Below the pieces are notes generated by a model, which saw only the letters and a program-made list of their open reading frames with translations, did no database searches and was not told where the DNA came from. A program made the translations under genes and the position numbers. A stretch of 19,814 nucleotides of DNA from Anaerolineae bacterium. GTDB taxonomy: Bacteria; Chloroflexota; Anaerolineae; 4572-78; J111. The stretch spans positions 1-19,814 of the forward strand of contig JAGRCC010000130.1 in assembly GCA_020433785.1 (NCBI GenBank). The letters are read 5' to 3'. This document shows positions 1 to 15,867 of this stretch, one piece after another; the stretch's first letter is position 1; each line of letters opens with the position of its first letter.

Positions 1-1664
1 CGCAGGATATTGCGCTTAAAGGCGCCGGGCAGCGGCTTAAAGTAAAGGTCGAGCGGCTGCTTCGTCATGAGCAAGTTGCCGTAGGTGGCGGCCAGGAAGC
101 ACAACTCCATCGAGTGATAGCCGCTCATCGAGTGGCTGCCCTTGAAGCGTTCCGTACCCATCAAATAAGGCAAACCGTTGGCTAATACGTTGAAGAAGAC
201 CGCGCCGTCGTCGTGATCTAAGAAAAAGGCGTTGTAAAAGGCGGATGACTCGCGGGCTAATTTCTGGTACTCAGCGTCGCCCAAAATGCCGTTTAAGATC
301 ATATAGGCTAGAATACCCTGTTCTTGCTGCCACCAGGCTTTGCGGTCGTGGAAAGCAAAGCGGTTGACCTCTTCACTGCCCCGTAATTTCCGCTCCATCA
401 CATCATACCAGCCGCCGCGCTGATTGTCCATGCCCACTTTGGGCATCTCGACGGCAATACGGCGGGCCAGAGTTTCATACTCCTCTTTGGGCTTCAGACC
501 GTACATGCGCATTAAGTTCCAGGCAATTTTGAGGTTATGGCCAACCACCCCCCGGTTTTGCTGCCACATATGGGTGGTGTCGTGCGACCAATCCTCATAA
601 AATTTTTCCTGAACAAAGGGGCTGTTGTTATAGTCCGGGAAATACTGTTGAATGGTGTCAAAGGTGTATTCCAGGAATTCAGCGTAGCGATTTTCGCCGG
701 TCGCCAGATAGAGGTTAATCAGGTAGGCTGGGGCATGGTCGCCGACAGAGTTCCAGTTCTTTTTGCCTTTGTTCTCGCCCAGAGAAGCGCTGTTGGGGTC
801 GAGGGTAATCGGGTCAAGGTGGGAGTAATAGCCCCCCTTGAATTTATCGAGGAAAAAGCGATCAAACAGGTCAACCGTTAGCTCCGCGTCTTGCAGAATG
901 CGGGGGTCGCCGGTGATGCGGTAATTTTGAATGGGACCGGCCAGAGCGTAAATCTGCTCGTAGGCCGGGATACCGTCGAAGTCATCGCCAAATTCCGAGG
1001 CAAACACTTTCGTCTCGCGCTGGCCGTGGATATCGATGCCGTGATACCAGTAGACGACTTTTTCATCGGTATCATAAAAACGCATATGTTCCCGCAGGTA
1101 TTCGGTGCCTTTTTCGGCCCCTTCCAGGTAACGGTCGTCACCCGTGAGCAAATAAGCCGAGGAAAAGCCGTAAACCAGGCGGGAAATGGTGTCGGTTTCC
1201 TGGCGATAGTTGTCGCCGGCCTTCTCGCCGTTTAGGGTGATGGTCGTGCGGTAATCTTTATAATCAACTGGTTGACCCTGAAACTGGGCTTGCAGATAAA
1301 AGTCGGCAATGGCGGCGATCTGCTTCACCCACCAATCCTGCCGTTCAAAGACGAAGTTATCGTCTTTGCGACCGGGGAAGATCATAAATTGGGCTTCAAA
1401 AGTGAAGCTAGAATGTTCGGGGTAGTAAATGCCATACACAAATAAATAGCGACCCGGCGTTAGCATTGCCTTCATCTGGTCTTGGCTGGTCCAGGTGCGC
1501 GGTTCGTTCAGGTTGTTGGCAATCCAGCCATAAGTGCCCGACGCGAATTTGACCTGATATTCTCGCCCATCGGTTGTTTTGAGGCCAAAGGTATCGGACC
1601 CATCAAAATCGGTCACATACCCGGCAATCGTATCTGAGAAAGTGAAATTTATGTCATTAGTCAT
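1..1664 (-). CDS. AGE-family (N-acylglucosamine 2-epimerase-like) protein, 3' end beyond window
   Basis: The frame is open from the ATG at 1664 to the left edge, giving at least 554 residues with the C-terminus missing. The start is supported by an AGGAGAG ribosome binding site six bases upstream. Residues 1 to about 100 look like a small beta-rich domain. From about residue 120 the sequence is helical with aromatic repeats typical of an (alpha/alpha)6 barrel. The segment read from about 546 to 517 contains VGHNLKIAW, matching the conserved GH-x-x-E/K-x-AW stretch of AGE enzymes, and RGGWYD and KAWWQQEQG follow, also family-like. Family members isomerise sugars or N-acyl-hexosamines in the cytoplasm. 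The substrate cannot be read from sequence, and a glycoside-hydrolase-like role with the same fold is possible. It lies last in the encapsulin-associated array, 216 bases after the CMD-like gene, so membership in that operon is uncertain. Confidence 0.7.
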   Translation of the reverse strand, partial: MTNDINFTFSDTIAGYVTDFDGSDTFGLKTTDGREYQVKFASGTYGWIANNLNEPRTWTSQDQMKAMLTPGRYLFVYGIYYPEHSSFTFEAQFMIFPGRKDDNFVFERQDWWVKQIAAIADFYLQAQFQGQPVDYKDYRTTITLNGEKAGDNYRQETDTISRLVYGFSSAYLLTGDDRYLEGAEKGTEYLREHMRFYDTDEKVVYWYHGIDIHGQRETKVFASEFGDDFDGIPAYEQIYALAGPIQNYRITGDPRILQDAELTVDLFDRFFLDKFKGGYYSHLDPITLDPNSASLGENKGKKNWNSVGDHAPAYLINLYLATGENRYAEFLEYTFDTIQQYFPDYNNSPFVQEKFYEDWSHDTTHMWQQNRGVVGHNLKIAWNLMRMYGLKPKEEYETLARRIAVEMPKVGMDNQRGGWYDVMERKLRGSEEVNRFAFHDRKAWWQQEQGILAYMILNGILGDAEYQKLARESSAFYNAFFLDHDDGAVFFNVLANGLPYLMGTERFKGSHSMSGYHSMELCFLAATYGNLLMTKQPLDLYFKPLPGAFKRNIL

Positions 1665-1880
1665 GTTTAACTCTCCTGACGTAAAAATAGCTTCAATAAT
1701 TCTGTAAAAAACAACCGGCATGGACGTACTTCAGCCCATCCCCAACCTCAAGGAAGCAGCGTACGATCCTGAAAATCGTCCCGGTGTGGCTTCCAGCCAC
1801 CGTTGACAGACGTCATGGTATCCTGACGGGGCAATTCGATTAATTTGGCGGCGCCGACTGATAGCTGGCGCTAACCCAGA

Positions 1881-2321
1881 TTAGGCCGGGCCAAAAACCT
1901 CGTCCAGGACGCTAAAGCAGGCCGCTGCTTTATTGAAGCCGGCGTAGACGCACATAAATAGCAAAAGTTCTTCAATTTCGGCGCGGGTGGCCCCTTGTTT
2001 GCGAGCCATATCGACGTGAACGACCATTGGGCCGCCCGCTCGCTCTTGATTGACCACATCAACGGCGATGGTGATCAGCGCTTTGGTTTTTTGGTCAATC
2101 AACGGTCGGCCCCAGGCCTCACCAGCGACGCGGGTACAAAAATCGCCAAACTTGGGGTTGACCCCGCTTAACCCGGCTTGAAGTTCATAATCATCTAACA
2201 CAGCGTTTCTGTATTTTGGGACAGAACCATTGCTTGACCCATTCCCATTGCTGAACGAGGACGATGATCCCCCGTTACCGGATCGTTTACGGGCATTAAA
2301 TTCCGAATAATCAGTTGCCAT
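1881..2321 (-). CDS. Carboxymuconolactone decarboxylase-like protein with N-terminal motif and flexible linker
   Basis: 146 residues from an ATG preceded by CAGGAG. Residues 1-13 hold a TDYS motif (3-6). Residues 14-33 are almost only Ser, Gly and Asn, a flexible linker. Residues 45-146 form an all-alpha CMD/AhpD-like domain: RPLIDQKTKALITIAVDVVNQ, a conserved His at about 102, GATRAEIEE, then VYAGFNKAAACFSVLDEVF. The AhpD peroxidase CXXC motif is absent (Cys124 and Cys135 are too far apart), so a decarboxylase- or hydratase-like activity fits better than peroxide reduction. Tag plus linker plus catalytic domain is the arrangement expected of an encapsulin cargo; that is inference. It sits 86 bases downstream of the EthD/NTF2 fusion, separated by a strong hairpin. 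Confidence 0.85.
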   Translation of the reverse strand: MATDYSEFNARKRSGNGGSSSSFSNGNGSSNGSVPKYRNAVLDDYELQAGLSGVNPKFGDFCTRVAGEAWGRPLIDQKTKALITIAVDVVNQERAGGPMVVHVDMARKQGATRAEIEELLLFMCVYAGFNKAAACFSVLDEVFGPA

Positions 2322-2348
2322 AAGCTTTTAACTCCTGTCAAATAGGAT

Positions 2349-2383
2349 AAAGTGGCCGGGATGGTTGACCCGCCGGTCACTTT
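2349..2383 (-). other. Intercistronic hairpin (11-bp stem)
   Basis: AAAGTGGCCGG (2349-2359) and CCGGTCACTTT (2373-2383) pair over 11 bases with one G-U type position and a 13-base loop. It lies between the EthD/NTF2 fusion stop and the ribosome binding site of the CMD-like gene. Only TTTATCC follows on the transcribed strand, so it is not a classical terminator. An RNA processing, stabilising or partial attenuation element is more likely. Confidence 0.45.
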
Positions 2384-2407
2384 GTTTAATGGCTTTTTAG
2401 TAGCCTC

Positions 2408-3001
2408 TCAAGTCGTAATTAATCTTAACAGATCGGGCGAAGCAAACACGTCGCGGTAGAACGTTAGCTGTTCGCCCTTGAAGTAGCACCCGCCTCGATG
2501 ACCGCGCCGCACCCAGGCGACGCTACCTTTGGCGATGGTCTCGCGGGTGTTGTCATCCATACAGGCCCACTCGAACCAGACAAATTCGCCATGGAACATC
2601 ACAATAGGCCAGGTCATGGTGACGCCGGGTTGGGCAATCAAAGCCCACCAGTGCTTCTCGCGTTCTTTCTGTTCATCCAGGCCGTAATAAGGGCCATCCT
2701 GGCAGAAATAAACCAGATTTTCGTGATATTCATCGGTTAATAAATCGCCCCGGCCGCGTCTTAGGGCTTCGCAGTGGCTGGGCCACCACTCTTTGTTTTC
2801 CCGTTCAATTTGCTCCAGGCTGTACCGCGATGAAAGTTCCGGCAAGTTCCGTTCTTTCATCGTAATGTATCTTTCAGCATCGGCGATCAATTTATCGCCG
2901 ATATGTTTGGGTACAGGTTCTGGGGTAGAGTAATCTGCTGATAAATCTCGGTAATAGTTAATTCGCCGTCTCACTGGAGATGACCCATTATTACTTGCCA
3001 T
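2408..3001 (-). CDS. Possible internal start: stand-alone NTF2-like product of the fusion gene
   Basis: Codon 352 of the fusion is an ATG (2999-3001). GGAGGA lies at 3008-3013, exactly six bases before it, as good a ribosome binding site as any in the window. Translation from here would give a 197-residue protein: a short Ser/Asn leader, the RINYYRDLSADYS motif at about residues 13-25, then the NTF2-like domain. Either the gene makes two products, or two once-separate genes were joined in frame and the old start signals remain. The sequence does not show which. Confidence 0.4.
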   Translation of the reverse strand: MASNNGSSPVRRRINYYRDLSADYSTPEPVPKHIGDKLIADAERYITMKERNLPELSSRYSLEQIERENKEWWPSHCEALRRGRGDLLTDEYHENLVYFCQDGPYYGLDEQKEREKHWWALIAQPGVTMTWPIVMFHGEFVWFEWACMDDNTRETIAKGSVAWVRRGHRGGCYFKGEQLTFYRDVFASPDLLRLITT

Positions 3002-4054
3002 TGCTGATCCTCCGTTATTAGTCAGTCTTGCTGATTGGCCGGTATTGTTAGCGGCCCCTGAGGTATTTCTTCTGGCGGCGGCGACCGGCGCGCTTCTGCC
3101 GACGGCTGCCACCGACGTACTATTATTGGCCATTGGTAGGCTATGGGTAATCCGGCCAACCACAAGGTCGTGAATATCGGCCTTGAGTTGATTAGTTGCC
3201 CCAAGGGTAGTGATCAATTGAGCCGTTCTGGAGCCTCGCTGTCCGGCCAGGGTCATCACACCGTTGTACACAAATGTGTACGGGTCTCGCTCCGGGAAGG
3301 GGCAAACCTGTTTGACGTACCGGGCCTGATCGCTGACTGCATCGGCATATTGCGGCGAGGCAAAGAAAAGCTCCATATCGAGTTTATTACTAAATGCAAT
3401 TTCATAAGCAGCTTGATACTGCTTTTCCGGTGGTTCATAATGTACAACCCCGGCCGCATCGGGACGGGACACATCAGGCGGCTCAAACAGGTGGAGCCGG
3501 AACTTGAGCACCCGGTCGCTGCGCTCGACATTGGCGGCAAACGTATCGGTCATATACTGGCGGAAGCTGGCCACACTACTTCCCGGCGCTTGTCTGACCA
3601 TCACATGAAACTTGATGACGGGCAGGTTGCCGTTGGGCGCTCCCTCGGCAATACCATCGACGTAGGTGATGGAGTTGCCTTCTTCAGTAACGTAGCCGAT
3701 GGCTTTGCTGAAGATATTGTGCTCATCGTCCATCAAGATGCCGGCGGCGTCGAACCAGATCTGCCGGTCGGCCACCGACTTGAAGGTTAACTCAGCAATA
3801 CCATCGAACTGGTCTTCTTCGGCGGTGCTATAATCGACGCCGTCAACTACCGGGAAGATACCACCGACATTATGACCGACATGGAACTGCCAATATTGAA
3901 ACTGACCGGGTAGTCGGGCGCAAACCGGGCCATGCACGTCCCGCCAATAGTCGTCAAACGCGGTCAGGGTAATCCCTTTGCGTTTCCATAGCGGCACGTA
4001 AAATGTAACTCTGGCCTCGTTATCGCGCCCTGCATAGTCAGTTTTGAAGGCCAT
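2408..4054 (-). CDS. Tandem EthD-like domain / NTF2-like (SnoaL-type) fusion protein
   Basis: 548 residues, ATG with GAGGAAAG upstream. Residues 12-135 are an EthD-like dimeric alpha/beta barrel (VTFYVPLWKRKG, FDDYWRDVHGPVCARLPG). Residues 145-300 look like a second, diverged copy (IKFHVMV, RSDRVLKFRLHLFEPPD). Residues 308-360 are an Asn/Ser/Ala-rich linker. Residues 364-376 carry the RINYYRDLSADYS motif, and 415-548 look like an NTF2/SnoaL-like cone fold (ENLVYFCQDGPYYG, TMTWPIVMFHGEFVWFEW). EthD and SnoaL folds serve in ring cyclisation, oxygenation or decarboxylation; no reaction can be assigned. The EthD part is nearly identical to that of the fusion at 4641-6545, so the two arose by duplication. 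Inside the linker a perfect GGAGGA and an ATG (3001) could start the NTF2-like half separately. Confidence 0.85.
   Translation of the reverse strand: MAFKTDYAGRDNEARVTFYVPLWKRKGITLTAFDDYWRDVHGPVCARLPGQFQYWQFHVGHNVGGIFPVVDGVDYSTAEEDQFDGIAELTFKSVADRQIWFDAAGILMDDEHNIFSKAIGYVTEEGNSITYVDGIAEGAPNGNLPVIKFHVMVRQAPGSSVASFRQYMTDTFAANVERSDRVLKFRLHLFEPPDVSRPDAAGVVHYEPPEKQYQAAYEIAFSNKLDMELFFASPQYADAVSDQARYVKQVCPFPERDPYTFVYNGVMTLAGQRGSRTAQLITTLGATNQLKADIHDLVVGRITHSLPMANNSTSVAAVGRSAPVAAARRNTSGAANNTGQSARLTNNGGSAMASNNGSSPVRRRINYYRDLSADYSTPEPVPKHIGDKLIADAERYITMKERNLPELSSRYSLEQIERENKEWWPSHCEALRRGRGDLLTDEYHENLVYFCQDGPYYGLDEQKEREKHWWALIAQPGVTMTWPIVMFHGEFVWFEWACMDDNTRETIAKGSVAWVRRGHRGGCYFKGEQLTFYRDVFASPDLLRLITT
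3008..3013 (-). promoter_or_regulatory. Internal Shine-Dalgarno GGAGGA inside the EthD/NTF2 fusion
   Basis: TCCTCC on the plus strand gives GGAGGA on the coding strand, six bases before an in-frame ATG. It codes Gly-Gly in the low-complexity linker, so it could also arise from linker composition. The exact spacing to ATG argues for a working or relict start site. Confidence 0.45.
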
Positions 4055-4070
4055 TAATTTCTTTCCTCAT

Positions 4071-4553
4071 TCATGCTTTAGGCTTAGCTGGACTAATTTC
4101 TATCCCGTAGTTAGGAGCGGCCGCTCGAAGCTGCTCAACATATTCTGGCGTCATTGGCTCTGGCGGCGCGGTGCGGTCGATGACCGGCCGGCCGGTTTCG
4201 TACAAGAACTTTTCCATCCCAGCGGGGGCGATCAAGTCCAGCATTCGGGCCGGGGTCGATCCCTCATTTTTGAAGGAGTGCAATACACCTTTTGGAATAT
4301 GAATGAAACAGCCGGTATCTAACCAGATACGTTCGTCGTTGACATAGAATGTCAGTTCACCTTCCAAAACGTAAATTGCTTCTACTTCCCGGCGGTGAAG
4401 ATGCGGCGGCGGTCCGGCACCCGGCGGCACAACCCCTTCAAACAAGGTGTAGGTTCCTTCGGTTTCGTCACCTACAGCCTGAAAGGTGTAATGATTACCG
4501 GCGACCCAGATACACTCGCCTTCACCTGGCCTTACAACTTTAACGCCTTGCAA
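4071..4553 (-). CDS. Single-domain cupin protein
   Basis: No ATG fits. A TTG at 4553 has CAGGAG eight bases upstream, giving 160 residues that begin just before the cupin fold; the frame stays open to another TTG at 4577 without a clear binding site. Cupin motif 1 is complete: GAGPPPHLH then E (His51, His53, Glu58 from the 4553 start). Motif 2 is IPKGVLHSFKN (His92). The four metal ligands are therefore all present, so a mononuclear metal site (Fe, Mn, Ni or similar) is expected. The C-terminal APNYGIEI resembles SPDYGLEY at the end of the cupin half of the neighbouring fusion, which suggests the two cupins are paralogues. The role may be a dioxygenase, isomerase or decarboxylase, or small-molecule binding. 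Confidence 0.85.
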   Translation of the reverse strand: MQGVKVVRPGEGECIWVAGNHYTFQAVGDETEGTYTLFEGVVPPGAGPPPHLHRREVEAIYVLEGELTFYVNDERIWLDTGCFIHIPKGVLHSFKNEGSTPARMLDLIAPAGMEKFLYETGRPVIDRTAPPEPMTPEYVEQLRAAAPNYGIEISPAKPKA

Positions 4554-4621
4554 TACGTTCGCTCCTGAAGCCAACAAATGAACTTGTGGCTTGTTACCAA
4601 AAACATGTGACCGTCTGTCTC

Positions 4622-4641
4622 AGACCTTAAATTCAAGGTCT
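4622..4641 (-). other. Hairpin at the stop codon of the EthD/cupin fusion gene
   Basis: AGACCTT (4622-4628) and AAGGTCT (4635-4641) form a perfect 7-bp stem with a six-base loop, overlapping the stop codon at 4641. No T-run follows on the transcribed strand, so it is more likely an mRNA-end stabiliser or partial attenuator than a terminator. Confidence 0.35.
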
Positions 4642-6545
4642 TACTCAAGGGTACCGCCCTTGTAATACTCCTGATCTTCAGCCAGGGCATATTCCAGGCC
4701 GTAATCAGGCGAAAGGGTTAGGTATTTTTCAACATCCTCTTCCGTCGTCGGCGGCAAAGGTGCATTGACATCACTTATTTGGTGACCGACGGCCAGTAGA
4801 TAATATTCTTCGACTGAAGGTGACATAATCACCAAGATGCGCGCCTTTTTGTTGGTTTTATTGGTAAAACTATGCACGACTTCTTTGGGCACATTCACAA
4901 AATCGCCCTCGCGCAACACAACTTCTTCACCGTCAACCACAAAGGTTAGCTCACCCTCGGCAATGTAAAAGCCTTCTTCATTCCAGTGCTGAATGTGAGG
5001 CGGCGGCCCACCCCCCGGCGGAATAAGCGATTCCATAAAGCCGTAGGCGTTGTCCGTTTCCTCGCCCAGCGCCATGAAGGAGCAAATGTCGCCGGAAGTT
5101 TCGATGATCCGTCTGTCTTTCGGTCTGATAACTTTGGCAACGGGCCTTTTCTTGAAGGTTTGGAAAAAGTCCGGTTTGCCGTACCGATTGAAAGGCGAGA
5201 AGATTTGGGCCATATTGGGTTTAGCGCCAGTAGCCACCGGTCCGGGCAAACTGCCGTTACCGTTACCGTTGCCGCCATTGGCCTGGGCCGAACTGTGCGA
5301 AAAGGCCCCCACCACTAACTGGTGAATGTCGCTTCTGAGTTGATTGGTAGCACCCAATTCAGTGATCAGTCCGGCTGTTCTTGAGCCGCGCTGACCGGTT
5401 AAGGTCATCTGGCCATTGTACACGAACGTGTAAGCATCGCGTTCCGGCAAAGGACTGACTTGTTTGATATACCGAGCCTGGTCGGCAATGGCGTTAGCAT
5501 AGTCGGACGAAGCAAAGAAAAGCTCCATATCCAGCTTATTTCTAAACGCAATTTCAAAGGCGGCCTGGTACTGTTTTTCCGGCGGCTCATAGTGAACAAC
5601 CCCAGCCGCATCGGGACGGGACACATCGGGCGGCTCAAACAGGTGGAGCCGGAATTTGAGAACCCGGTCGCTGCGCTTGACATTAGCGGCAAAGGTGTCG
5701 GTCATGTACCGGCGAAAATCGGCGTTGCCGACCCACGGCGTTTGACTGACCATGACGTGAAATTTGATGATATCCAGATCGCCGTTGGGGTCGCCGTTTG
5801 AGATACCATCAACATAAGTGATGGAGTTCCCCTGTTCGGTGACGTAGCCAATGGCTTTGCTGAAGATATTATGCTCGTCATCCATCAGGATGCCGGCGGC
5901 GTCAAACCAAGTTTGTCGATCAGCGACCGATCTGAACGTTAATTCAGCGATACCATCAAATTGGTCTTCTTCATCCGTAGTATAATCGACCCCATCGACA
6001 ACGGGAAAAATCCCGCCTTCGTTGTGGCCTACGTGAAATTGCCAATATTGAAACTGGCCGGGCAGCCGGGCGCAAACCGGGCCATGCACATCCCGCCAGT
6101 AATCGTCGAATGCTTCTAAAGTGATGCCTTTGCGTTTCCACAATAGCACATAGAACGTAACTCTGGCCTCATTGTCGCGGGCTGAGTAGTCCGTGAGACC
6201 GGCTGAGTTACTGGGGCGGCGTTCCGGCGGGCGAGATGGGCTGGCTCCCGCGCCATTGGTGGACCCATTGGTCGCAGGGGGGCTGGCCGCTGCACGGCTT
6301 GATGACGCACCGTTACCGGCCACAGACGGCCCTTGTAAGGCCACAGTGGTGGGTACATCCATCACCCCTGACACTTTTAGGCCATACTTCCGTTGGAATG
6401 CGGTGAGAGCCTCTCGAGTTCCCGGCCCGAAAAATTCACGATCGACCTCAGACGCCGGCAGGTCAAACCCGTGCTGTCGGAGTTTACTGTGAATATTTCG
6501 TACCTCGTCGCCAAACGCGCCTACTGAAAGATTGCCTATAGGCAT
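4641..6545 (-). CDS. Peptidoglycan-binding-like / tandem EthD / cupin fusion protein
   Basis: 634 residues from the ATG at 6545, chosen because GAGGAGG lies five bases upstream; a TTG six codons earlier lies upstream of that binding site. Residues 3-72 match the PG_binding_1 three-helix fold (LSVGAFGDEVRNIHSKL, FFGPGTREALTAFQRKYGLKVSGVMD). Residues 74-116 are a Ser/Ala/Asn/Pro linker, followed by TDYS (118-121). Residues 123-415 are two EthD-like domains nearly identical to those of the gene at 2408. Residues 422-440 are a Gly/Asn linker and 450-634 a cupin. There is no signal peptide, so the peptidoglycan-binding-like domain is probably a protein-interaction module in the cytoplasm. In cupin motif 1 the second His is Gln (HIQH, residues 517-520), while Glu524 and His558 remain, so metal binding may be altered. 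Confidence 0.88.
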   Translation of the reverse strand: MPIGNLSVGAFGDEVRNIHSKLRQHGFDLPASEVDREFFGPGTREALTAFQRKYGLKVSGVMDVPTTVALQGPSVAGNGASSSRAAASPPATNGSTNGAGASPSRPPERRPSNSAGLTDYSARDNEARVTFYVLLWKRKGITLEAFDDYWRDVHGPVCARLPGQFQYWQFHVGHNEGGIFPVVDGVDYTTDEEDQFDGIAELTFRSVADRQTWFDAAGILMDDEHNIFSKAIGYVTEQGNSITYVDGISNGDPNGDLDIIKFHVMVSQTPWVGNADFRRYMTDTFAANVKRSDRVLKFRLHLFEPPDVSRPDAAGVVHYEPPEKQYQAAFEIAFRNKLDMELFFASSDYANAIADQARYIKQVSPLPERDAYTFVYNGQMTLTGQRGSRTAGLITELGATNQLRSDIHQLVVGAFSHSSAQANGGNGNGNGSLPGPVATGAKPNMAQIFSPFNRYGKPDFFQTFKKRPVAKVIRPKDRRIIETSGDICSFMALGEETDNAYGFMESLIPPGGGPPPHIQHWNEEGFYIAEGELTFVVDGEEVVLREGDFVNVPKEVVHSFTNKTNKKARILVIMSPSVEEYYLLAVGHQISDVNAPLPPTTEEDVEKYLTLSPDYGLEYALAEDQEYYKGGTLE

Positions 6546-6550
6546 GTTAG

Positions 6551-6557
6551 CCTCCTC
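6551..6557 (-). promoter_or_regulatory. Ribosome binding site GAGGAGG deciding the fusion start
   Basis: GAGGAGG on the coding strand ends five bases before the ATG at 6545. It rules in this start over the upstream in-frame TTG at 6563. Confidence 0.75.
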
Positions 6558-6609
6558 GTGCAATATACTTGTCTGTCATTCAATCGGACCTGTGTCTTCG
6601 TTGTCGGAG

Positions 6610-7482
6610 CTATTTCTTGGCTTTGGACCCTTGAAACTGGAGCTTGACAAAAGCCTGCGGCTCACGTACCACCACTTGCACGCGCTCTAACACGCGGAAG
6701 CGATGATTGCCGAAGGGGTCTTCCGAATTGTAGACGGTAATTGCATCTTGGGCGATGTGAACGGCGGTTGGGCTACCACCTAAAGAAACGAGCAAGCCGG
6801 TATATTCCGGGAGTGTCCCTGTGCCGTAAAAACGGCCATCAACCAACGGATTAATCCGGTCAGAGGTGGTGACCAACGTGTTAGGAACCGGGGCGTGGGT
6901 ATCGGCGAATATGCTTGTTTCAAGCACCAGCGCGTAGGGGCCGGGGTGACCGGCCGCGATAAGCTGACCAATGCCTTTGCTAACGGCGGTGAAGGTGTTC
7001 TCGCCAAAGCCGCCGCTGGCTAACGGTTCCACGGTAATGGGGGTCTGCATCCCGGCAAGGTTCAGCAAGCCGGTCCAGTCGGAGCGCATATTGGCAACTG
7101 CAACTCCTTGGGGTAAGGGCGCTTGCGTACCCTGGAAAAAGAGCAAGTCTTCGGCCAGAGCCACTTTTCTGCCGCTTAACTGAGCCAGCGTTTTCGCGGT
7201 GCTTAGCGTGGCTTCGTTGTTGACTTGGCTTTGGGTTAGGGCAAACTTGGCTGAGATTTCAAGAAACGGTAAGGTGACGCCTTCCTTAATCATCAGCGGG
7301 TCGCCGGGCGTTTCACCTAAGGTTAGGATATCCGCCTGTACATTGTCTTGGCCGGGCTTTTGCTGCGACGGGAAGATTTTCTGCGCCACGCGCACCCGCC
7401 CGACATCTGCCATAACTTCTTTGTCGATATCACTCCAGATTTGTGAAGTCCATACAGACCCTCGTCCAAAATTGTTAGCCAT
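6610..7482 (-). CDS. Encapsulin shell protein (Family-1-like, HK97 fold)
   Basis: 290 residues from the ATG at 7482. TAAGGAGG lies five bases upstream, so the open frame extending to 7569 is not used. I recall the Thermotoga encapsulin sequence, and this protein follows it throughout: an N-terminal helix with W-x-x-ID (residues 16-20), an E-loop region at about 48-72, LPFLEISAKFAL (71-82) matching LPLIELRATFTL, ALAEDLLFFQG (108-118) matching the EDEVIFRG helix end, GPYALVLE (181-188) matching GPYTLVIN, and a C-terminal stretch (RFRVLERVQVVVREPQAFVKLQF, 261-283) matching [21 protein letters not shown]. The length is that of encapsulins, which self-assemble into protein shells that hold cargo enzymes. 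The N-terminal helix is characteristic of Family 1 and helps bind cargo peptides. No phage genes (portal, terminase, protease) lie nearby, which argues against a prophage capsid. Confidence 0.87.
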   Translation of the reverse strand: MANNFGRGSVWTSQIWSDIDKEVMADVGRVRVAQKIFPSQQKPGQDNVQADILTLGETPGDPLMIKEGVTLPFLEISAKFALTQSQVNNEATLSTAKTLAQLSGRKVALAEDLLFFQGTQAPLPQGVAVANMRSDWTGLLNLAGMQTPITVEPLASGGFGENTFTAVSKGIGQLIAAGHPGPYALVLETSIFADTHAPVPNTLVTTSDRINPLVDGRFYGTGTLPEYTGLLVSLGGSPTAVHIAQDAITVYNSEDPFGNHRFRVLERVQVVVREPQAFVKLQFQGSKAKK

Positions 7483-7487
7483 TATAG

Positions 7488-7495
7488 CCTCCTTA
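7488..7495 (-). promoter_or_regulatory. Strong ribosome binding site of the encapsulin gene
   Basis: TAAGGAGG on the coding strand lies five bases before the ATG at 7482. It is among the best Shine-Dalgarno matches in the window, fitting the high expression a multi-subunit shell needs. It sets the start 29 codons inside the longer open frame. Confidence 0.8.
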
Positions 7496-7527
7496 GTTTC
7501 AATCAGGACTTGTTTGATGCGATACTT

Positions 7528-7587
7528 AAGTAGGGGCGCACCCTGGTGATCGCCCTGTAGGGCAGGCACCAGGCCATGCCCCTACTT
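7528..7587. repeat. Nested palindromic repeat element (MITE/REP-like)
   Basis: A 60-bp element with three nested perfect stems: AAGTAGGGGC (7528-7537) with GCCCCTACTT (7578-7587), CCTGGTG (7542-7548) with CACCAGG (7567-7573), and GCCCT (7552-7556) with AGGGC (7559-7563). It fills the gap between the encapsulin gene and the upstream NTF2/VOC gene. From memory, similar GTAGGGGC-armed palindromes are scattered through Chloroflexota and some cyanobacterial genomes. Transcribed, it would fold into a long hairpin that could separate expression of the shell gene from the genes before it. Confidence 0.8.
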
Positions 7588-7616
7588 CCAGCAAGCATGA
7601 TGTTTAGAAATAAATA

Positions 7617-8621
7617 TTAAAAATCGCCTTCCAGCAGTTCAACAAAGGTGCCGTCCGGGTCTTTGAAACAAACAATACTAACGGATGTCCCCGGCAAAAG
7701 CTTGGGTTCCGATAGGAACTCAACCCCTTGCCCTCGCAGATAATCATACATCTGCCAAATGTCGGTTGTTTTCAAACACATACGGGCAATGCCGGTATGG
7801 TACAGATGGGGATACGGGGTTCCGGTGGGCGGCGGATCTTGAAACTCAAGCAAATCGATCCGGGTCGCGTCCGGGCCATCGCCCAGGCGCAGGTGAGCGC
7901 CTTTGATATTGGCCCGATCCATCCCAAAGGCGTCGGCCATCTCCTGGCTTTCCATCCCATCGCCAAAATCCATAATGACTTTGAAGCCCAGCATTTGATA
8001 AAATGGTATGGTCCGCGTGAGATCGGTACAGTTAATGTTGAAATGGAAAATGCGGTCGATAGGCAGCTGCGCCACTAGTGGCCATTTTGGCCCGGCTATC
8101 GACCACTTGGGAGCGTAGCCATTGCTTGCCCGGTAAATGCCTTCCTCGTGCTCGGTGAAATACTTGCGCATCAGGCCGGGCTGCACTGCTCGTCCGCCGC
8201 GACTAACGGTATAGACTGACGCTTTTTCGCCGATCGGCAGCGACGGGTCGAAGATGGGGTTGGCGTCCATATAAATGCGTAGTTCATCGATCTTATCGCC
8301 ATCGAAGCGGAAGATGTCAGAACAGGGCAGGACGACGGAGGTGCCGTCTTTGCGCCAATACATCACATCCATTTCGACAAACACCGTGTCGCCTTTTTCC
8401 CACACGTTCCTAATGTCGTGATAAAGCGCGGCCACGGCGCCAAAGAAATTTTCAACCGAGTCGTAAATTTCCCCATGGTTTAAGCACGGTTCGGCGTTGC
8501 CAAAATGGTACACCGGGTCGTCGGTAAAAAAGCTGGCAAACCCGGCCGAGTCAAAGGCTTCACCCCGGCCAAATAAGCGTACACATGTGTCTGCCATTAC
8601 TCCTGGAATTCTATCCGTCAT
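7617..8621 (-). CDS. NTF2-like (SnoaL-type) / VOC (glyoxalase-fold) fusion protein
   Basis: 334 residues, ATG with AGAGGAGA upstream. Residues 8-125 look like an NTF2/SnoaL-like domain (FASFFTDDPVYHFGN, GDTVFVEMDVMYW, CSDIFRFDGDKIDELRIYMD). Residues 188-334 are a vicinal-oxygen-chelate domain. It shows the expected metal ligands: His193 (FHFNINC), Glu259 (LLEF), His275 (HTGIARM) and Glu328 (FVELLEGDF). VOC enzymes include extradiol dioxygenases, glyalase-type isomerases and epimerases that use one divalent metal. With both EthD fusions and the CMD-like protein nearby, a ring-cleaving or isomerising step is plausible but not shown. There is no recognisable DYS motif or low-complexity linker, so nothing marks it as cargo. 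Confidence 0.85.
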   Translation of the reverse strand: MTDRIPGVMADTCVRLFGRGEAFDSAGFASFFTDDPVYHFGNAEPCLNHGEIYDSVENFFGAVAALYHDIRNVWEKGDTVFVEMDVMYWRKDGTSVVLPCSDIFRFDGDKIDELRIYMDANPIFDPSLPIGEKASVYTVSRGGRAVQPGLMRKYFTEHEEGIYRASNGYAPKWSIAGPKWPLVAQLPIDRIFHFNINCTDLTRTIPFYQMLGFKVIMDFGDGMESQEMADAFGMDRANIKGAHLRLGDGPDATRIDLLEFQDPPPTGTPYPHLYHTGIARMCLKTTDIWQMYDYLRGQGVEFLSEPKLLPGTSVSIVCFKDPDGTFVELLEGDF

Positions 8622-8819
8622 AAGATGCGTCTCCTCTGAAAATAGGCAAATTTAAAAATTGCCAATTCAGTAACTTTTATTAGGTCGGGGTCTGGATTCG
8701 GCTCCCCACCTGATTCCGACTTAAGTTAACGAGATATTTGTAACTTTGCTGTTGTTGAACCGTAGTTCGGTTAAACTCCCTAATAGCCAGCGAAACGTGA
8801 TCTGACGCCTAACGCTTGA

Positions 8820-10163
8820 TTAATCTCCAAAACTGGCAGCTAAGGCCTTAGACCAAAACATACCATTGGGATCCATCTGTTGGCGGAGCGCGTTGAACTT
8901 GTCCCAGTTAGGATACATTCGCCGCAGATCGGCCGGGTCTAAATAGATGAGTTTACCCAGGTGAGGGCGACCACCATGGTTGAGCATTAGCCGTTCGATG
9001 CGCATCACCATATCTTTAACGTGAGAGGGTGTACCCTCAAATAGGTTATGATAGATGCCGCACTGCACGCACTGTTCATCGGCGGCGCTCAACCAGGCGG
9101 TTTCGGGGGCAACTTTCTTAAGCCAAACAATCGGCAGGTAGAAGTCGCCTTTGTCTATCTCCGCCTGCATATCGGCCAGCGCTGCCTCAAAGTTAGAGAC
9201 AGGTACAGACCACTCAGCCCCAGCGATGGGCACCGATTGAAAAGACATCAAAATCTCATGGGCCGGCCCTACTTTTTCGATATCTTGAAAGAAAACGTCC
9301 ATTAAGTAGCGATTTCGGGCCGGAAACGTGGAAGGCAGAATGTTGGCTAACTCGGCCACGGCGCCGATGTATTTTTCAACATCCAACCCCATACGTTCCA
9401 AGTCTTCCGGGTTATTGGGATCAAACCCGGTGGATGAGGCCGCTTCGGCCAAGTTTTTGGCTTCAGCCGCGTCTGAAATAATATCCACTGTCGCCAATAC
9501 CGCCCGGCCGGTGTGGGGAAACCATAACACATAGGACATTTCCCCTTCGGTTATATACCGTTGCCAATCTTCGACGGGGATTTGGGTGCGTTTCATCGAC
9601 ACATAAAAAGCATCGACCACTTTCAGAGTAATAGAAGATAAAATACCCAGCACACCCATGGACACACGTACAGCATCTAATCGTTCATCGGCTTCATCAA
9701 GTTCAAGCACATTCCCATCAGCCGTAACTAGGCGGCAACCAATCATGCTCGATGAGTTACTGGCCGGGCCGCTGCCGTGGCTGCCGGTGCTGACCGAGCC
9801 ACCAACCGTCACCCAATCTACGGCCGGTGCTGTGTCTAAGGTTAATCCCTTTTCCCAAAGTGCCTTGTGGACTTCTTCCAGGGTGACCCCGCTCTCGCAG
9901 GTAATCGTTTTATTCTCAACATCGATTTCGGTAATCTTGTTGAGATTCTTGGTGGTCATCATGACATCTTCACAATGCCACAACGTATTCCAGGAGGTTT
10001 GTAGGCCAATAACCCGGAGTTTCTTTTGATTATCGCGGCAAAATTGCACTAACTCTACAATTTCGGCTTCATTTTGGGGGGCGTAAACTTCGGCTGACCC
10101 GCCAAAATCAGTAAAACCTGACCAATCGGCCAATCGGATGGTTTCCATATGCAGGGGCTTCAT
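8820..10163 (-). CDS. FAD-linked oxidase (aldonolactone/alditol oxidase-like)
   Basis: 447 residues, ATG with TAGGAG seven bases upstream. That TAGGAG contains the stop codon of the DJ-1-like gene, so the two are translationally close. Residues 20-185 are the PCMH-type FAD-binding domain, including GGSVSTGSHGSG (121-132) that binds the cofactor. The C-terminus has RPHLGKLIYL and FNALRQQMDPNGMF, the HxGK and DP-x-GMF signatures of the D-arabinono-lactone/alditol oxidase family. Members oxidise sugars, lactones or polyols, often producing H2O2 with oxygen. Where relatives usually have GxGHS with a His that binds FAD covalently, this protein reads VIGLQTSW (51-58), with Thr in the His position, so FAD is probably bound non-covalently. 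It likely supplies an oxidation step for the cluster. Confidence 0.85.
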   Translation of the reverse strand: MKPLHMETIRLADWSGFTDFGGSAEVYAPQNEAEIVELVQFCRDNQKKLRVIGLQTSWNTLWHCEDVMMTTKNLNKITEIDVENKTITCESGVTLEEVHKALWEKGLTLDTAPAVDWVTVGGSVSTGSHGSGPASNSSSMIGCRLVTADGNVLELDEADERLDAVRVSMGVLGILSSITLKVVDAFYVSMKRTQIPVEDWQRYITEGEMSYVLWFPHTGRAVLATVDIISDAAEAKNLAEAASSTGFDPNNPEDLERMGLDVEKYIGAVAELANILPSTFPARNRYLMDVFFQDIEKVGPAHEILMSFQSVPIAGAEWSVPVSNFEAALADMQAEIDKGDFYLPIVWLKKVAPETAWLSAADEQCVQCGIYHNLFEGTPSHVKDMVMRIERLMLNHGGRPHLGKLIYLDPADLRRMYPNWDKFNALRQQMDPNGMFWSKALAASFGD

Positions 10164-10172
10164 ATGGCACTC

Positions 10173-10772
10173 CTAATTTTTCTCAATCTCTTGCACAAAA
10201 ACTTCCATAAATTGATCGACCATGCCGGGGTGCTTGCCTGAGATCAAGTTGCCATCTATCACCAGGTCGGCTGTTTCATCATCTTCGGTGTAAATTACTT
10301 CGCCCCCAGCATTTTCAACATCGCACACAATATTGTGAGCGCAGGTCACCTGGCGGCCCTTGAGTAAATCCGAATCGGCGCAGAGCAACCACATACTGTG
10401 GCAGATGGTACCAACCTTGGCCTGCTGCTCCATCGCTTTGCGTAAGAAGACGACGGCCGGAGCCTGATTTTTTTGACCTTTTTTGATTTTTACTTGATAG
10501 CGTAGGCGGTCTGTGGCATAGGCACCAATGAGGATGATGCCTGCATAATCAGAGGGGTTAATATCGTTGACTTCGGTAGATACAGTTACCCGCTCTTCAA
10601 CGATGTTATCTTCCGGATTGGAGCCAAAGTGGAGTTCCGGTTGGCCCCATAAATGAGAGATATACTCAACTTCATACCCTTGCGTTGGAAAATACTCATT
10701 GAATCGACGGTATTCGGTAGGGTCAAAATGGTCTTCAATAAGCACACCAATTTTCCCTTTGAGCTCTGCCAT
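10173..10772 (-). CDS. DJ-1/PfpI-family (class I glutamine amidotransferase-like) protein
   Basis: 199 residues, ATG preceded by GCGAGGT. The fold is read from an N-terminal KIGVLIEDHFDPTEY strand-turn with a conserved Glu13, the DYAGIILIGAY strand, and the nucleophile elbow GTICHSMWLL with Cys124 followed by His125. This matches the C-H pair of DJ-1/PfpI proteins, whose roles include deglycase/glyoxalase, protease, hydratase (isocyanide hydratase) and chaperone activities. The insertion around residues 90-105 is Lys-rich. The stop overlaps the ribosome binding site of the FAD oxidase, so both are in one transcript. Deglycation or detoxification of a reactive product is one possible role; the sequence cannot decide. 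Confidence 0.85.
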   Translation of the reverse strand: MAELKGKIGVLIEDHFDPTEYRRFNEYFPTQGYEVEYISHLWGQPELHFGSNPEDNIVEERVTVSTEVNDINPSDYAGIILIGAYATDRLRYQVKIKKGQKNQAPAVVFLRKAMEQQAKVGTICHSMWLLCADSDLLKGRQVTCAHNIVCDVENAGGEVIYTEDDETADLVIDGNLISGKHPGMVDQFMEVFVQEIEKN

Positions 10773-10924
10773 AAATATTACCTCGCTAAACTACAAGAAA
10801 GTTTTTACTATAACTACTTATGTCATCTGATCCGTACGGGCTGCCAAATCTCATAAGGTCATCATTCCTATGGGACGGGCAGGGCACAGGGATAACCACG
10901 CCTACGTTTTACAACAGAAACTAA

Positions 10925-11143
10925 TTAATCTAAAGGTGGAACAGCATCGGCGATGCACTTTTCAATCCACGCTTTAATTAAATCTGGGAGTTCATCTAGC
11001 TGCCGAAATTGACCTACAATCTTTTCATCCAGAGCAATTAAATTGCCGTGTTGTACGTTTCCATCTTTATCAACTAATAGACGGGTAACTAACGTAAAAT
11101 ACCGTCTATCAAGCAATTTGGTGGTTTCACTCTTTTTTGTCAA
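10925..11143 (-). CDS. Small hypothetical protein (72 aa)
   Basis: The start is a TTG at 11143 with AAGGG seven bases upstream; no ATG is available. I do not recognise the family. The N-terminus is basic (TKKSETTKLLDRR), a predicted beta-hairpin follows (YFTLVTRLLVDKDGNVQHGNLIAL), then an amphipathic helix to the end. It has no signal peptide or membrane segment. It sits between the BTAD regulator and the DJ-1-like gene on the same strand, 152 bases before the latter. A short open frame on the other strand at 11339 has a loosely similar hairpin (RFLIDSQGNRQ). Confidence 0.5.
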   Translation of the reverse strand: MTKKSETTKLLDRRYFTLVTRLLVDKDGNVQHGNLIALDEKIVGQFRQLDELPDLIKAWIEKCIADAVPPLD

Positions 11144-11338
11144 AGAAAAACCCTTAGAACTCGTCCATGAATAAGTTTTCGTTTTGAGGTATGATGCCTG
11201 TCACCAAAAAAGTAACAGAGAAGATACCGAGGCCAGGCAGAGTAATTTACTAAGGCAAATAGGCCAGTTGCCTGGAGGCCGAAGATGACCCGGATAATTT
11301 AGAAGCCGAACCTCGGCCTTTATCCAGGTGATATTCGG
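11144..11338. other. Non-coding stretch with two strong hairpins
   Basis: I see no protein gene here. Two paired structures stand out: CCAGGCA (11234-11240) with TGCCTGG (11270-11276), enclosing AGTAA-T-TTACT (11242-11252); and GGATAA (11292-11297) with TTATCC (11320-11325), enclosing GCCGA-ACC-TCGGC (11305-11317). This could be a structured leader, a small RNA or a remnant of a palindromic element. It lies directly before the small plus-strand frames at 11339. Confidence 0.35.
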
Positions 11339-11577
11339 TTGTCAAAATACAAAGTTATCTATGGACGATTCCTTATTGACAGCCAAGGTAATCGTCAAAT
11401 TAGGATTTGAAGATTTTTAGCGTGTGCAGTTGCTACATTAGTAAAGGGAAAAATGAGGACTTCCCCTTAATCCTCGACCCACAGGAATTATTCGACCCTA
11501 TTACGCAGGTCAATATATTGACGCAGGACCTTGAGGCTCGAGTGCCATTATCTCATCACAGGCTGATGTCTGTATGA
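11339..11577 (+). pseudogene. Two overlapping tiny frames, possible frameshifted small gene
   Basis: Frame 1 runs from a TTG at 11339 to TGA at 11410 (23 aa, with a YGRFLIDSQGNRQ hairpin), with AGGTGA about eight bases before it. Frame 2 begins at a TTG (11407) overlapping that stop and runs to TGA at 11577 (56 aa, containing DFPLILDPQELFDPITQ). One base change would join them into a single protein of about 80 residues. Either this is a decayed small gene, a coupled pair, or chance. I recognise no family, and the plus orientation is opposite to all neighbouring genes. Confidence 0.25.
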
Positions 11578-11693
11578 TAACGGTCTGAAATCACAATGAA
11601 TTTAGTCTGAAGTTCTTCTCAGAAATACCTGAAGTTGTTGTTGTCTTGATTGGGAAAAGGTTTGGTGGGCAAAATATAGCCAATCATTGAATA

Positions 11694-12494
11694 TTAGACG
11701 TTGGTCGGATCCAGCCGAATTTGGTCGAAAAGTTCCTGTGTAGCCAGTTCGGGTTTAATATCAAATTCTGCCGTCAGAACCTGGCAGCAAAGTTGATATT
11801 GGCGCAGCGCTTGCGCTCGTGTACCCAGGCGTACATAACAGCGCATCGCCTGTCGGTGGGCATCTTCCCGACAAGGGTCGTGTTTGAGCAAGCGGTGGAT
11901 GTAGGATAAGGTCTTGGTATAGTCGCCAAGAGAATAGGCGTAGTCTGACAGTGAGGCCAATAAGTCCAAAAATGCCGCGCGTAACCGTTCTCCCTCAATT
12001 ATAGTTTGAATGCTGGAGTCACCGCCCAAATCGCCTTTATAAAGGTTCAATGCCCCTTCATAAAAAGCGATGCCTTTTTCATGTTCGCCTTTGTTTAATA
12101 AGCGCATCCCCTCAGCTCGCCAGGCGTCGAAATAATCGATATCGATGCCGATCTCTTCCGACGTATCGAGGTAGTAATACCCATTATCGTGGTTAACCAA
12201 ACTATCCCGTTTGGAAAACTTCTTAGTCAGCTTATTGAGTTGATAAATCAGGCTGTTGAGCGATTGGCCGGCCAGAGTTGTATCACATCCCGGCCAGAGT
12301 TGTTCCAGGATCTGAGTTCGTTCCAGGCGATACTGCCGCGTTAAAGCCAGATGAGTCAGTAACAACTCAGATTTGCTGCCACTGCTGATTGGCACCTGTA
12401 TATCGTACATCATCAGCCTGAATGGTCCCAACAGAGAAATCATGATGGGCGCGAGATTTTCTTGATGAGATATTTGAACAAAAATGCTATTCAC
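11694..12494 (-). CDS. BTAD/SARP-type transcriptional regulator
   Basis: 266 residues from a GTG at 12494, which has GGAGGA seven bases upstream. An in-frame TTG at 12512 would lie upstream of that site and is less likely. Residues about 15-95 resemble the OmpR-like winged-helix domain of SARP regulators (ISLLGPFRLMMYD, QILEQLWPG, SLNSLIYQLNKL). Residues about 105-266 are the bacterial transcriptional activation domain with TPR-like helices (AFYEGALNLYKGDL, LLKHDPCREDAHRQAMRCYVRLGTRAQALRQYQLC). There is no ATPase or sensor domain. SARP-type proteins activate secondary-metabolite clusters by binding direct repeats next to promoters. Its place at the head of the same-strand array suggests it is the pathway-specific activator of the encapsulin cluster; that is inference. 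Confidence 0.85.
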   Translation of the reverse strand: MNSIFVQISHQENLAPIMISLLGPFRLMMYDIQVPISSGSKSELLLTHLALTRQYRLERTQILEQLWPGCDTTLAGQSLNSLIYQLNKLTKKFSKRDSLVNHDNGYYYLDTSEEIGIDIDYFDAWRAEGMRLLNKGEHEKGIAFYEGALNLYKGDLGGDSSIQTIIEGERLRAAFLDLLASLSDYAYSLGDYTKTLSYIHRLLKHDPCREDAHRQAMRCYVRLGTRAQALRQYQLCCQVLTAEFDIKPELATQELFDQIRLDPTNV

Positions 12495-12501
12495 AATTTG
12501 T

Positions 12502-12507
12502 TCCTCC
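12502..12507 (-). promoter_or_regulatory. Ribosome binding site deciding the GTG start of the BTAD regulator
   Basis: GGAGGA on the coding strand ends seven bases before GTG at 12494. A 17-codon frame (12540 to 12487) ends across this start, but it has no binding site of its own. Confidence 0.65.
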
Positions 12508-12710
12508 CTCAATTAGTCGCTGTAAATCATTTAACTTCATTGCTATATTCTTATGTGTAATTCTGGGAGATTAGTTCTTAGCGGTAAAAGTGTGTTGAGC
12601 CGAAAAATCCTTTGCTGGAGCATCTACTTATGAACTGCCGTTCAAGTCAATGCGGAGACGGCGTGAACTAGTATTTGAAATCGAAGTTGATCATGAAGTC
12701 TAAGCCTATG

Positions 12711-12845
12711 TTACCGGTTATAGCCGTAAACCCAATTTGCCCCCAGAGCTTTACAATGTAAGGGCCAATCTATCTCATTGGATATAGGGTGTGCCTTGGA
12801 GTAATCTGCGGCCGAATCTTTGTAATAGTGGATTCGGTTTTTCAT
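12711..12845 (-). CDS. 44-aa microprotein carrying the cluster's YY-[RK]-D-x-x-ADYS motif
   Basis: The ATG at 12845 follows AAAAGGAGG (12852-12860) with six bases between, an excellent ribosome binding site, and the frame stops with TAA at 12711. The product has 44 residues. Residues 4-16 read RIHYYKDSAADYS, identical at 9 of 13 positions to residues 364-376 of the EthD/NTF2 fusion (RINYYRDLSADYS). The rest (SNEIDWPLHCKALGANWVYGYNR) has no family I recognise. There is no membrane segment or signal peptide. It lies 216 bases upstream of the BTAD regulator on the same strand and may be co-transcribed. It may be a stand-alone motif-bearing peptide (a targeting or regulatory peptide) or the 5' remnant of a lost NTF2-like gene. 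Confidence 0.6.
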   Translation of the reverse strand: MKNRIHYYKDSAADYSKAHPISNEIDWPLHCKALGANWVYGYNR

Positions 12846-12851
12846 GTTTTA

Positions 12852-12860
12852 CCTCCTTTT
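12852..12860 (-). promoter_or_regulatory. Strong ribosome binding site of the 44-aa microORF
   Basis: AAAAGGAGG on the coding strand, six bases before ATG. A near-perfect match to the 16S rRNA anti-Shine-Dalgarno is the main reason to treat this short frame as a gene. Confidence 0.65.
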
Positions 12861-13261
12861 GCTGATAGGCTTATAACAATTAATAGCTGAGTTCTGAAGC
12901 AACAGTACAACTTGTCTCTCTCTCATTCAGGTTTAAGCGTTACAATTAACATATCTTAACCTTTGAATGACTGGCAGACACGGCTAAGTACGGAGATCTA
13001 TTTATAAGGTGGCTCCTTCCATGCAGAAAGTTTCAACGCAATTGAACTACTTTTGGTAGAATAGTTAAGAAGCACTATTTGTTATACAGTTATATGGGGG
13101 TAAACTATTAGCTGTTTGTTAAAAAGGAGTGAGAAAAGAAGGGTTGGTTGGTCTAAGCCGTTAGCAGTGTCTAAAAAGCACGAAGTTCATCAGCTGACCT
13201 AAAACTTCTGCCTTCAGGCGGCACACTTTTCCCCTTCCCCTATTTATTTTCTGTCAGCACC
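12861..13261. other. AT-rich leader/intergenic stretch without a gene
   Basis: No frame with a credible start and ribosome binding site was found on either strand. If the promoter at 13267-13295 serves the leftward cluster, this would be a leader of about 400 bases before the microORF. A small CCTTCAGG-centred hairpin at about 13210-13220 is the only structure noted. Confidence 0.4.
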
Positions 13262-13295
13262 TCTCAATTATTATATATATTGTGAGAACTGTCAA
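13262..13295 (-). promoter_or_regulatory. Sigma70-like promoter with operator-like inverted repeat, pointing into the cluster
   Basis: On the minus strand a perfect TTGACA (-35, 13290-13295) is followed after 17 bases by AATAAT (-10, 13267-13272); TATAAT at 13270-13275 is an alternative at 14-base spacing. TCTCA (13262-13266) and TGAGA (13283-13287) form an inverted repeat that covers the -10 and spacer, as a repressor or activator site would. The direction fits the microORF and BTAD gene. Confidence 0.5.
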
Positions 13296-13396
13296 GTGGT
13301 TTTCCTATTATAGGGGGGTGATTTTTGGTATTTGGGAGGTTAATGGCCAATGATTCCCCAAAAACAAGGCCAATTTTACCCGGTTTGTAGCAGCCG

Positions 13397-14377: not shown

Positions 14378-14398
14378 AGTGAGTATTTGCTGAGAATG

Positions 14399-15799: not shown

Positions 15800-15837
15800 G
15801 GTTAAGCTCCTAGTAAGAACAAGGACGAACTGGCTGT

Positions 15838-15867
15838 ATTATACTCACCTACTTTGGTTGACAGCAA
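15838..15867 (-). promoter_or_regulatory. Promoter of the sugar transferase / cyclophilin unit
   Basis: On the minus strand a perfect TATAAT (15838-15843) lies 18 bases from TTGCTG (15862-15867), a weak -35. It is about 40 bases upstream of the ATG at 15799. The perfect -10 and the position support it; the poor -35 limits confidence. Confidence 0.5.

Follow-up and report, generated by a model that had tools for sequence, protein, structure and literature searches.

A divergent Family-1-like encapsulin gene in an apparently conserved array of small-molecule enzyme genes from an Anaerolineae bacterium

The Family 1 encapsulins described so far contain, for the most part, enzymes that handle iron or peroxide (PMC8346489, section 7). 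Their cargo usually ends in a short targeting peptide, which in the Klebsiella encapsulin is contacted by Arg34 and Asp38 of the shell (PMC10960027). A locus that departs from this description is found in an Anaerolineae bacterium (Chloroflexota; assembly GCA_020433785.1), in a stretch of 19,814 nucleotides (contig JAGRCC010000130.1, positions 1 to 19,814), which is called the window here. On its minus strand, genes are arrayed in the transcription order DJ-1, FAD (flavin adenine dinucleotide) enzyme, SnoaL-VOC fusion, encapsulin, a fusion of a peptidoglycan-binding-type domain (PGBD) with tandem EthD and a cupin, free cupin, EthD-EthD-SnoaL fusion, CMD, and AGE-epimerase-like protein, with 9–198 bases between neighbours from the DJ-1 to the AGE-like gene. 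The shell gene encodes a genuine Family-1-like encapsulin and the array around it is apparently conserved; the set of enzyme partners is unreported in the open-licence PubMed Central (PMC) literature searched. In that literature encapsulins are not reported together with EthD or with peptidoglycan-binding, and there is no EthD, SnoaL or gulonolactone oxidase in the encapsulin, linocin and nanocompartment papers; EthD domain combined with cyanobacteria gave only fumagillin work, and encapsulin combined with Chloroflexota only an enzyme filament. The cupin alone is not new, since cupin genes are already described in PMC8346489 as accessories beside mycobacterial DyP encapsulins.

The shell protein belongs with the encapsulins by its sequence and predicted fold, as the earlier note on this DNA had proposed in calling the gene a Family-1-like encapsulin. 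Its Linocin_M18 match in Pfam scores 79.1 bits against a cutoff of 24.3, and encap_f1 is the sole NCBIfam family matched at 0.001, by 42/42 members of the shell alignment, with the window protein at 90.9 bits, below the equivalog cutoff of 100. The AlphaFold2 model has a predicted local distance difference test (pLDDT) score of 89.9. For this model Foldseek gives 909 matches in the PDB. Of the best 50, 46 have encapsulin or EncA in their titles, with M. xanthus EncA and the B. methanolicus shell leading the list. An engineered nanocage and the P. furiosus particle, which section 7 of PMC8346489 classes as an encapsulin, account for the remaining four. The Linocin_M18 family is shared with the Family 1 shells of M. 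xanthus (EncA), Q. thermotolerans and B. methanolicus, with template modelling scores of ~0.70–0.77 by query, but identity to them in the structural alignments is only ~20–24%. The protein is therefore a Family-1-like, divergent encapsulin, having the Linocin_M18 family and a predicted HK97-type fold and lying below the encap_f1 cutoff.

The HK97 fold is common to encapsulins and phage capsids, and it might be argued that the gene encodes a domesticated or prophage major capsid unrelated to enzyme encapsulation. There is a weak Phage_capsid match of the shell protein (16.0 bits, below the cutoff of 24.2), and the PGBD of the adjoining fusion gene matches PHROG endolysins. However, PHROG gave no match for the shell protein, nor did tblastn against 50,697 phage records, a viral-contig scan gave no locus related to it, Pfam found no terminase, portal or tail family in the 18 window open reading frames that were scanned, and the structural matches listed for the predicted model are encapsulins. 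A capsid origin of this kind would be very improbable, and the comparison of encapsulin families with phage capsids that the earlier note had called for has come out on the side of the encapsulins.

The shell-enzyme neighbourhood is apparently conserved in related DNA. Linkage was examined indirectly, through exact equality in length of each cluster's longest contig (at least 5 kb) together with a shared source. The comparison took in 120 encapsulin relatives, the rows listed among 560. For the EthD fusion it took in 119 relatives, the 120 rows listed among 266 minus that of the window itself, and for the FAD enzyme another 119, the 120 rows listed among 122 minus one that had no contig. The chance level was taken from lengths offset by 1 to 1000 bases either way; matches between short contigs, some of them plainly due to chance, were ignored. 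At least 7 same-length encapsulin-EthD pairs are present on 6 contigs, where the mean over the offsets is 0.022, and at least 6 encapsulin-FAD pairs on 6 contigs, where it is 0.029; the largest pair count in any length offset was 2. Where the contig is at least 7 kb long, 10 of the 14 close encapsulins (P0001–P0045) have a same-length EthD relative, FAD relative or both among those listed, and shells as little as 63% identical still show the linkage. The contigs of the linked relatives include ones of 258,599 and 22,565 bases. A 77-row tree, thinned from the list and including 10 outside rows, places all 10 linked encapsulins in one 26-row clade with support of 100/100. The PGBD-EthD-cupin architecture is seen in seven other listed clusters, of which five (P0122, P0124, P0137, P0138, P0142) share a length with an encapsulin relative, while P0123 and P0139 have no length match to an encapsulin; the EthD-SnoaL relatives P0143 and P0145 also share lengths with encapsulin contigs. 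Since encapsulin and EthD or FAD relatives are indicated together on 10 other contigs, the array is, as judged from these lengths, more than a chance association, and the earlier expectation of a conserved neighbourhood survives this indirect check.

Encapsulin-profile matches occur in 7/377 Myxococcota genomes, with one sequence each (two from genome G001) placed outside the window clade in the tree, and a scan of the contig collection with two peptide patterns gave one distant locus, in a Myxococcota metagenome-assembled genome, at 30% identity. In a sample of 187 Myxococcota genomes, 41 have some match to the fusion at 1e-3, the best having an E value of 1.2e-15 and 35% identity over the cupin part, and no close EthD relative was found in them.

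The shell differs from classical ones at the site that contacts the targeting peptide. It has Gln34 and Pro38 where classical shells have Arg and Asp/Glu; the alignment with 9i8e places Arg and Asp at window positions 34 and 38, and the equivalence to Klebsiella Arg34 and Asp38 is taken from this alignment and not from one with the Klebsiella protein. Positions were counted over 121 rows, the window plus the 120 listed of 560 relatives, with 4 gaps at position 34. Gln34 is present in 117/117 lettered rows, as well as in a plasmid encapsulin of Nitrosospira, and Pro38 in 37/37 of the closest rows and 60/80 of the other lettered rows. The listed distant encapsulins P0037–P0120 have Gln34 in 80/80 lettered rows. 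Among the comparison loci (8 Myxococcota, 1 Ruegeria), Arg is found at 34 in 8/9 and Asp/Glu at 38 in 7/9. A simple pattern scan of 9 window proteins gave no C-terminal targeting-peptide match, its sole matches being LSVGAF at the N-terminus of the PGBD and an internal SLPIG in the SnoaL-VOC protein; nor does Pfam find in the array a domain of any of the cargo classes given in section 7 of PMC8346489. Classical Family 1 loading does not fit this shell, as far as its sequence can tell, because the array proteins lack the C-terminal peptide pattern and the peptide-contacting Arg is replaced by Gln.

The PGBD, or alternatively a LAQIFS peptide further along the same protein, is read as a candidate docking element. 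With the 93-amino-acid PGBD as query, 4/72,556 plasmid records match at an E value of 1e-3 or better, and the best of these (1e-9, the next being 2e-4) is the N-terminus of the gene directly after the encapsulin of Nitrosospira sp. NRS527. In a separate comparison with the window shell, that encapsulin ranks first of only three plasmid matches (38.6%). The Nitrosospira encapsulin shares Gln34 and Pro38 with the window, and the next gene in both cases starts with a PGBD, but the neighbours differ: in the Nitrosospira locus (L002:10758-22480) the encapsulin gene is flanked by large genes annotated as SpvB/TcaC N-terminal and as neuraminidase-like, between which there is also a small hypothetical gene, and the neuraminidase-like gene begins with the PGBD. 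Since the PGBD is the one part of the window fusion that is matched in the Nitrosospira stretch, a tie to the shell shared by both would be the simplest reading, and the presence of a PGBD adjoining an encapsulin in two such unlike settings is counted in favour of non-classical docking. When used as a query itself, the Nitrosospira PGBD finds nothing better than 4e-3 in the plasmids beyond itself, and matches 5/50,697 phage records at 1e-3 or weaker, all of them Burkholderia phages and 4/5 annotated as endolysin. By hydropathy alone, there is no hydrophobic N-terminal stretch in the window PGBD protein, which would suggest that it is probably cytoplasmic and unlikely to bind peptidoglycan.

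The second candidate is a motif of the form P[NT][LIM][AT]Q[IL][YF]S, which follows a flexible linker in 19/20 listed PGBD-bearing EthD rows, the window included. It is present in 1/100 listed EthD rows with no recognised PGBD, and that row, P0141, has a shortened N-terminus. In complete-looking forms without a cupin the motif lies 3–5 residues from the C-terminus, and otherwise it stands before the added cupin. Two dissimilar cupins follow the same LAQIFS-type peptide, one in P0137, P0138, P0139 and P0142 and the other in P0121–P0124, which suggests two separate cupin fusions after the peptide. Some of the EthD relatives look frame-shifted (the tails of P0146 and P0152).

The explanation preferred here, with a probability of about one half, is that the genes form an operon-like array in which a divergent Family-1-like encapsulin houses some members of a conserved cassette of small-molecule enzymes (EthD, SnoaL, VOC, CMD, cupin, FAD enzyme, DJ-1 and AGE-like), with the PGBD-EthD-cupin fusion as the main cargo. 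This fusion, encoded beside the shell gene, would dock on the inner side of the shell by way of its N-terminal PGBD, the LAQIFS peptide or both, and its partners would be recruited by linkers and shared domains. The shell may then confine a reactive quinone-, lactone- or enediol-like intermediate, which the FAD enzyme would hand on to the EthD, cupin and SnoaL domains. A further proposal, which is put forward tentatively and is rather less probable, is that the PGBD is a folded docking domain and would represent a new class of loading element for Family-1-like shells with a remodelled peptide site. Unlike cargos, an EthD-cupin enzyme here and a very large protein in Nitrosospira, would have been recruited by acquiring it, and the clade would have turned a widespread free-standing cassette into a multi-enzyme nanoreactor. 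If true, a clade with a multi-enzyme cassette, an altered peptide site and a folded docking module would widen the roles of encapsulins and the ways in which they are loaded.

Several observations weigh against this explanation. On contigs of at least 7 kb, 4/14 close encapsulins have no listed partner and 0/24 distant encapsulins (P0046–P0120) are linked to a listed EthD or FAD relative; on contigs of at least 5 kb, 6/71 listed FAD rows and 7/86 listed EthD rows match an encapsulin, and these contigs were equated by length and source. Cupin-less PGBD-EthD proteins are found on long contigs (e.g. 416,228 and 75,426 bases) that match none of the 120 listed encapsulins, and contigs of 30,278 and 64,191 bases pair EthD with FAD and have no listed encapsulin, so that the link of the PGBD and of the LAQIFS peptide to the shell is not a strict one in these data, although the absence of a shell partner among the rows listed is weak evidence. 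The link between PGBD and encapsulin outside the clade is a single plasmid, and PGBDs are common in endolysins, as the PHROG matches indicate. The LSVGAF stretch resembles classical targeting peptides, but it also fits the usual PGBD pattern and may be nothing beyond that. Encapsulation of any enzyme of the array is unproven, as is the manner of cargo loading proposed here.

It is also conceivable, if unlikely, that the shell is tied to the cassette but loads another of its components, namely the FAD enzyme, the SnoaL-VOC protein or, via its MATDY extension, the CMD protein, the PGBD having some other role such as EthD oligomerisation. The SnoaL-VOC gene flanks the shell gene on its other side, the FAD relatives share at least 6 contig matches with encapsulins, and the CMD protein has an N-terminal peptide and flexible linker, the anatomy of a targeting peptide, that is not present in the Nostoc CMD described below, whose match begins at its residue 3. 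However, no common peptide was recognised across the FAD, SnoaL-VOC and CMD proteins by the simple pattern scan and by eye, and the PGBD recurs beside the Nitrosospira encapsulin. The absence from the array of a classical cargo domain and of a C-terminal targeting-peptide pattern could alternatively mean that the real cargo of a Family 1 shell is encoded elsewhere, as proposed for BfrB in M. tuberculosis, a cargo from outside the operon (PMC8346489, section 7), and that the cassette is only a stable neighbour. Against this speak the altered peptide-contacting positions of the shell and its linkage to the cassette, which persists at shell identities as low as 63% and is seen on 10 contigs, all in one clade. 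A cargo encoded elsewhere is considered decidedly unlikely.

The cassette also exists in the absence of a detected shell gene. The plasmid pNOS3756_1 of Nostoc sp. NIES-3756 carries relatives of five array genes in one stretch, 53–75% identical: CMD (74%), DJ-1 (75%), AGE (67%), an EthD-SnoaL protein that is 61% identical over 545 amino acids to the window fusion of this type, and the SnoaL-VOC relatives, which are two separate proteins in Nostoc (SnoaL 53–54%, VOC 54%). Part of this set is also found in Gloeothece verrucosa. The Nostoc cluster differs in having extra aldose epimerase, glucose dehydrogenase and NHL genes. Across the 30.9-kb Nostoc stretch, tblastn at 1e-5 gave no match to the encapsulin, the FAD enzyme, the cupins or the PGBD. 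Three of 72,556 plasmid records match the encapsulin, and pNOS3756_1 is not one of them; in this Nostoc the searches covered the plasmid. Given this plasmid, the enzyme set is not specific to the shell, and on this point the earlier reading is unsupported in the form in which it was put. The shell, FAD enzyme, cupins and PGBD are probably additions relative to Nostoc, and related cassettes with and without a shell would offer a natural comparison.

Cyanobacterial proteins join CMD, EthD, VOC and SnoaL in one chain, and there are natural fusions with cupin domains too, as well as FAD-SnoaL fusions, two of which (P0254, P0256) share lengths with encapsulin contigs. These fusions and the Nostoc cluster suggest that the cassette enzymes probably act together. 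The EthD-CMD fusions P0147, P0148 and P0153 start with a MATDY-like peptide, a possible targeting peptide. P0155, P0188 and P0202 lack it in their CMD portions, as does the CMD protein of the Nostoc plasmid. In P0202 (Nostoc sp. NIES-4103) and P0226, which are fusions of CMD-EthD-SnoaL type, there is a C-terminal linker followed by YVSSVGLR or YSSSVNLN, which looks tag-like.

It is proposed, with low confidence, that the enzymes oxidise and rearrange a quinone-, lactone- or enediol-like compound. The Foldseek matches of the fusion model, of moderate score among the best 50 listed, fall on the predicted EthD part and include putative monooxygenases, chalcone isomerase, an anthrone-oxidase-like protein, sulfur oxygenase reductase, methylmuconolactone isomerase, coproheme decarboxylase and chlorite dismutase; the cupin part has a mean pLDDT of 62 and its structure was not used. 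A link between EthD and the DyP peroxidases, suggested earlier, holds at the level of the common dimeric alpha/beta-barrel superfamily and no closer, the first DyP chain being at rank 41 of the 50 listed matches. A DyP-like identity for these domains was rejected, as Pfam gives EthD and not DyP and the likeness is at fold level only.

In the case of the FAD enzyme, the FAD_binding_4 and ALO domains and motifs of the S-H-G-S-G and H-x-G-K type are present, but the protein differs from aldonolactone and alditol oxidases in having Thr at the usual His position of G-x-G-H-S and W/F/Y-x-K in place of E-x-R. Both substitutions are found in 75/75 aligned close members, whereas 17 ordinary ALO relatives have His in 16 and Glu in 13 at the corresponding positions. 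We take this His to be the usual covalent-flavin residue and the Glu of E-x-R to be an active-site position of ALO enzymes. Since both are absent throughout the close family, hydrogen peroxide production by this protein is doubtful, contrary to what had been supposed, and a standard lactone oxidase as its source was rejected. The CMD sequence has no C-x-x-C pair, presumably the motif of AhpD-type peroxidases, and so it is unlikely to be a peroxidase of this type.

The features of the locus are collected in Table 1. Every open reading frame of the earlier note is present on the minus strand, and the domains given for them are borne out by Pfam. Its picture of a same-strand enzyme array with an encapsulin thus stands as regards the domains, with the change that the BTAD gene, which it had included, is set apart, while a further same-strand AGE-like gene at the window edge had been missed. 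Similarly, EthD and cupin are indeed present in the fusion beside the shell gene, but the PG_binding_1 domain at its N-terminus had been overlooked.

Table 1. Positions in the window of the array genes, the two candidate docking elements and the nearby regulator gene
Feature	Position	Strand	Basis or remark
DJ-1/PfpI family protein, 9 bases upstream of FAD gene	10173..10772	-	Pfam
FAD enzyme, aldonolactone-oxidase fold, 447 aa	8820..10163	-	Pfam FAD_binding_4 + ALO
SnoaL (NTF2-like)-VOC fusion, 334 aa	7617..8621	-	Pfam SnoaL_2 + Glyoxalase/VOC
Family-1-like encapsulin shell protein, 290 aa	6610..7482 (open reading frame to 7569; ATG at 7482)	-	Pfam Linocin_M18
PGBD-tandem EthD-cupin fusion, 634 aa	4641..6545 (possible longer TTG start 6563)	-	Pfam PG_binding_1, EthD (2 stretches), Cupin_2
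N-terminal PG_binding_1-like domain, residues 5-77 of fusion; candidate shell-docking domain	6315..6533	-	Pfam
PNMAQIFS peptide, residues 443-450, after low-complexity linker; alternative candidate docking peptide	5196..5219	-	Motif comparison
Free cupin, 168 aa, TTG start	4071..4577	-	Pfam Cupin_2
Tandem EthD-SnoaL fusion, 548 aa	2408..4054	-	Pfam EthD (2 stretches); SnoaL_2 match below cutoff
CMD-family protein with ~36-aa N-terminal extension (MATDY peptide + Gly/Ser/Asn linker)	1881..2321	-	Pfam CMD
AGE/GlcNAc 2-epimerase-like protein, cut by window edge	3..1721	-	PF07221
BTAD/SARP-type regulator	11694..12512	-	Pfam BTAD; 921 bases upstream of array

Promoter- and terminator-like counts are at the level of shuffled sequence, and the limits of the operon therefore rest on spacing only. 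An Rfam scan at gathering scores gave no match to an RNA element, and an anti-phage defence system was rejected as a candidate, PADLOC having given no match for the 9 proteins. Outside the array, DoxX genes with no match between them at 1e-5 are present both at 16019–16474 of the window and in the Nostoc cluster.

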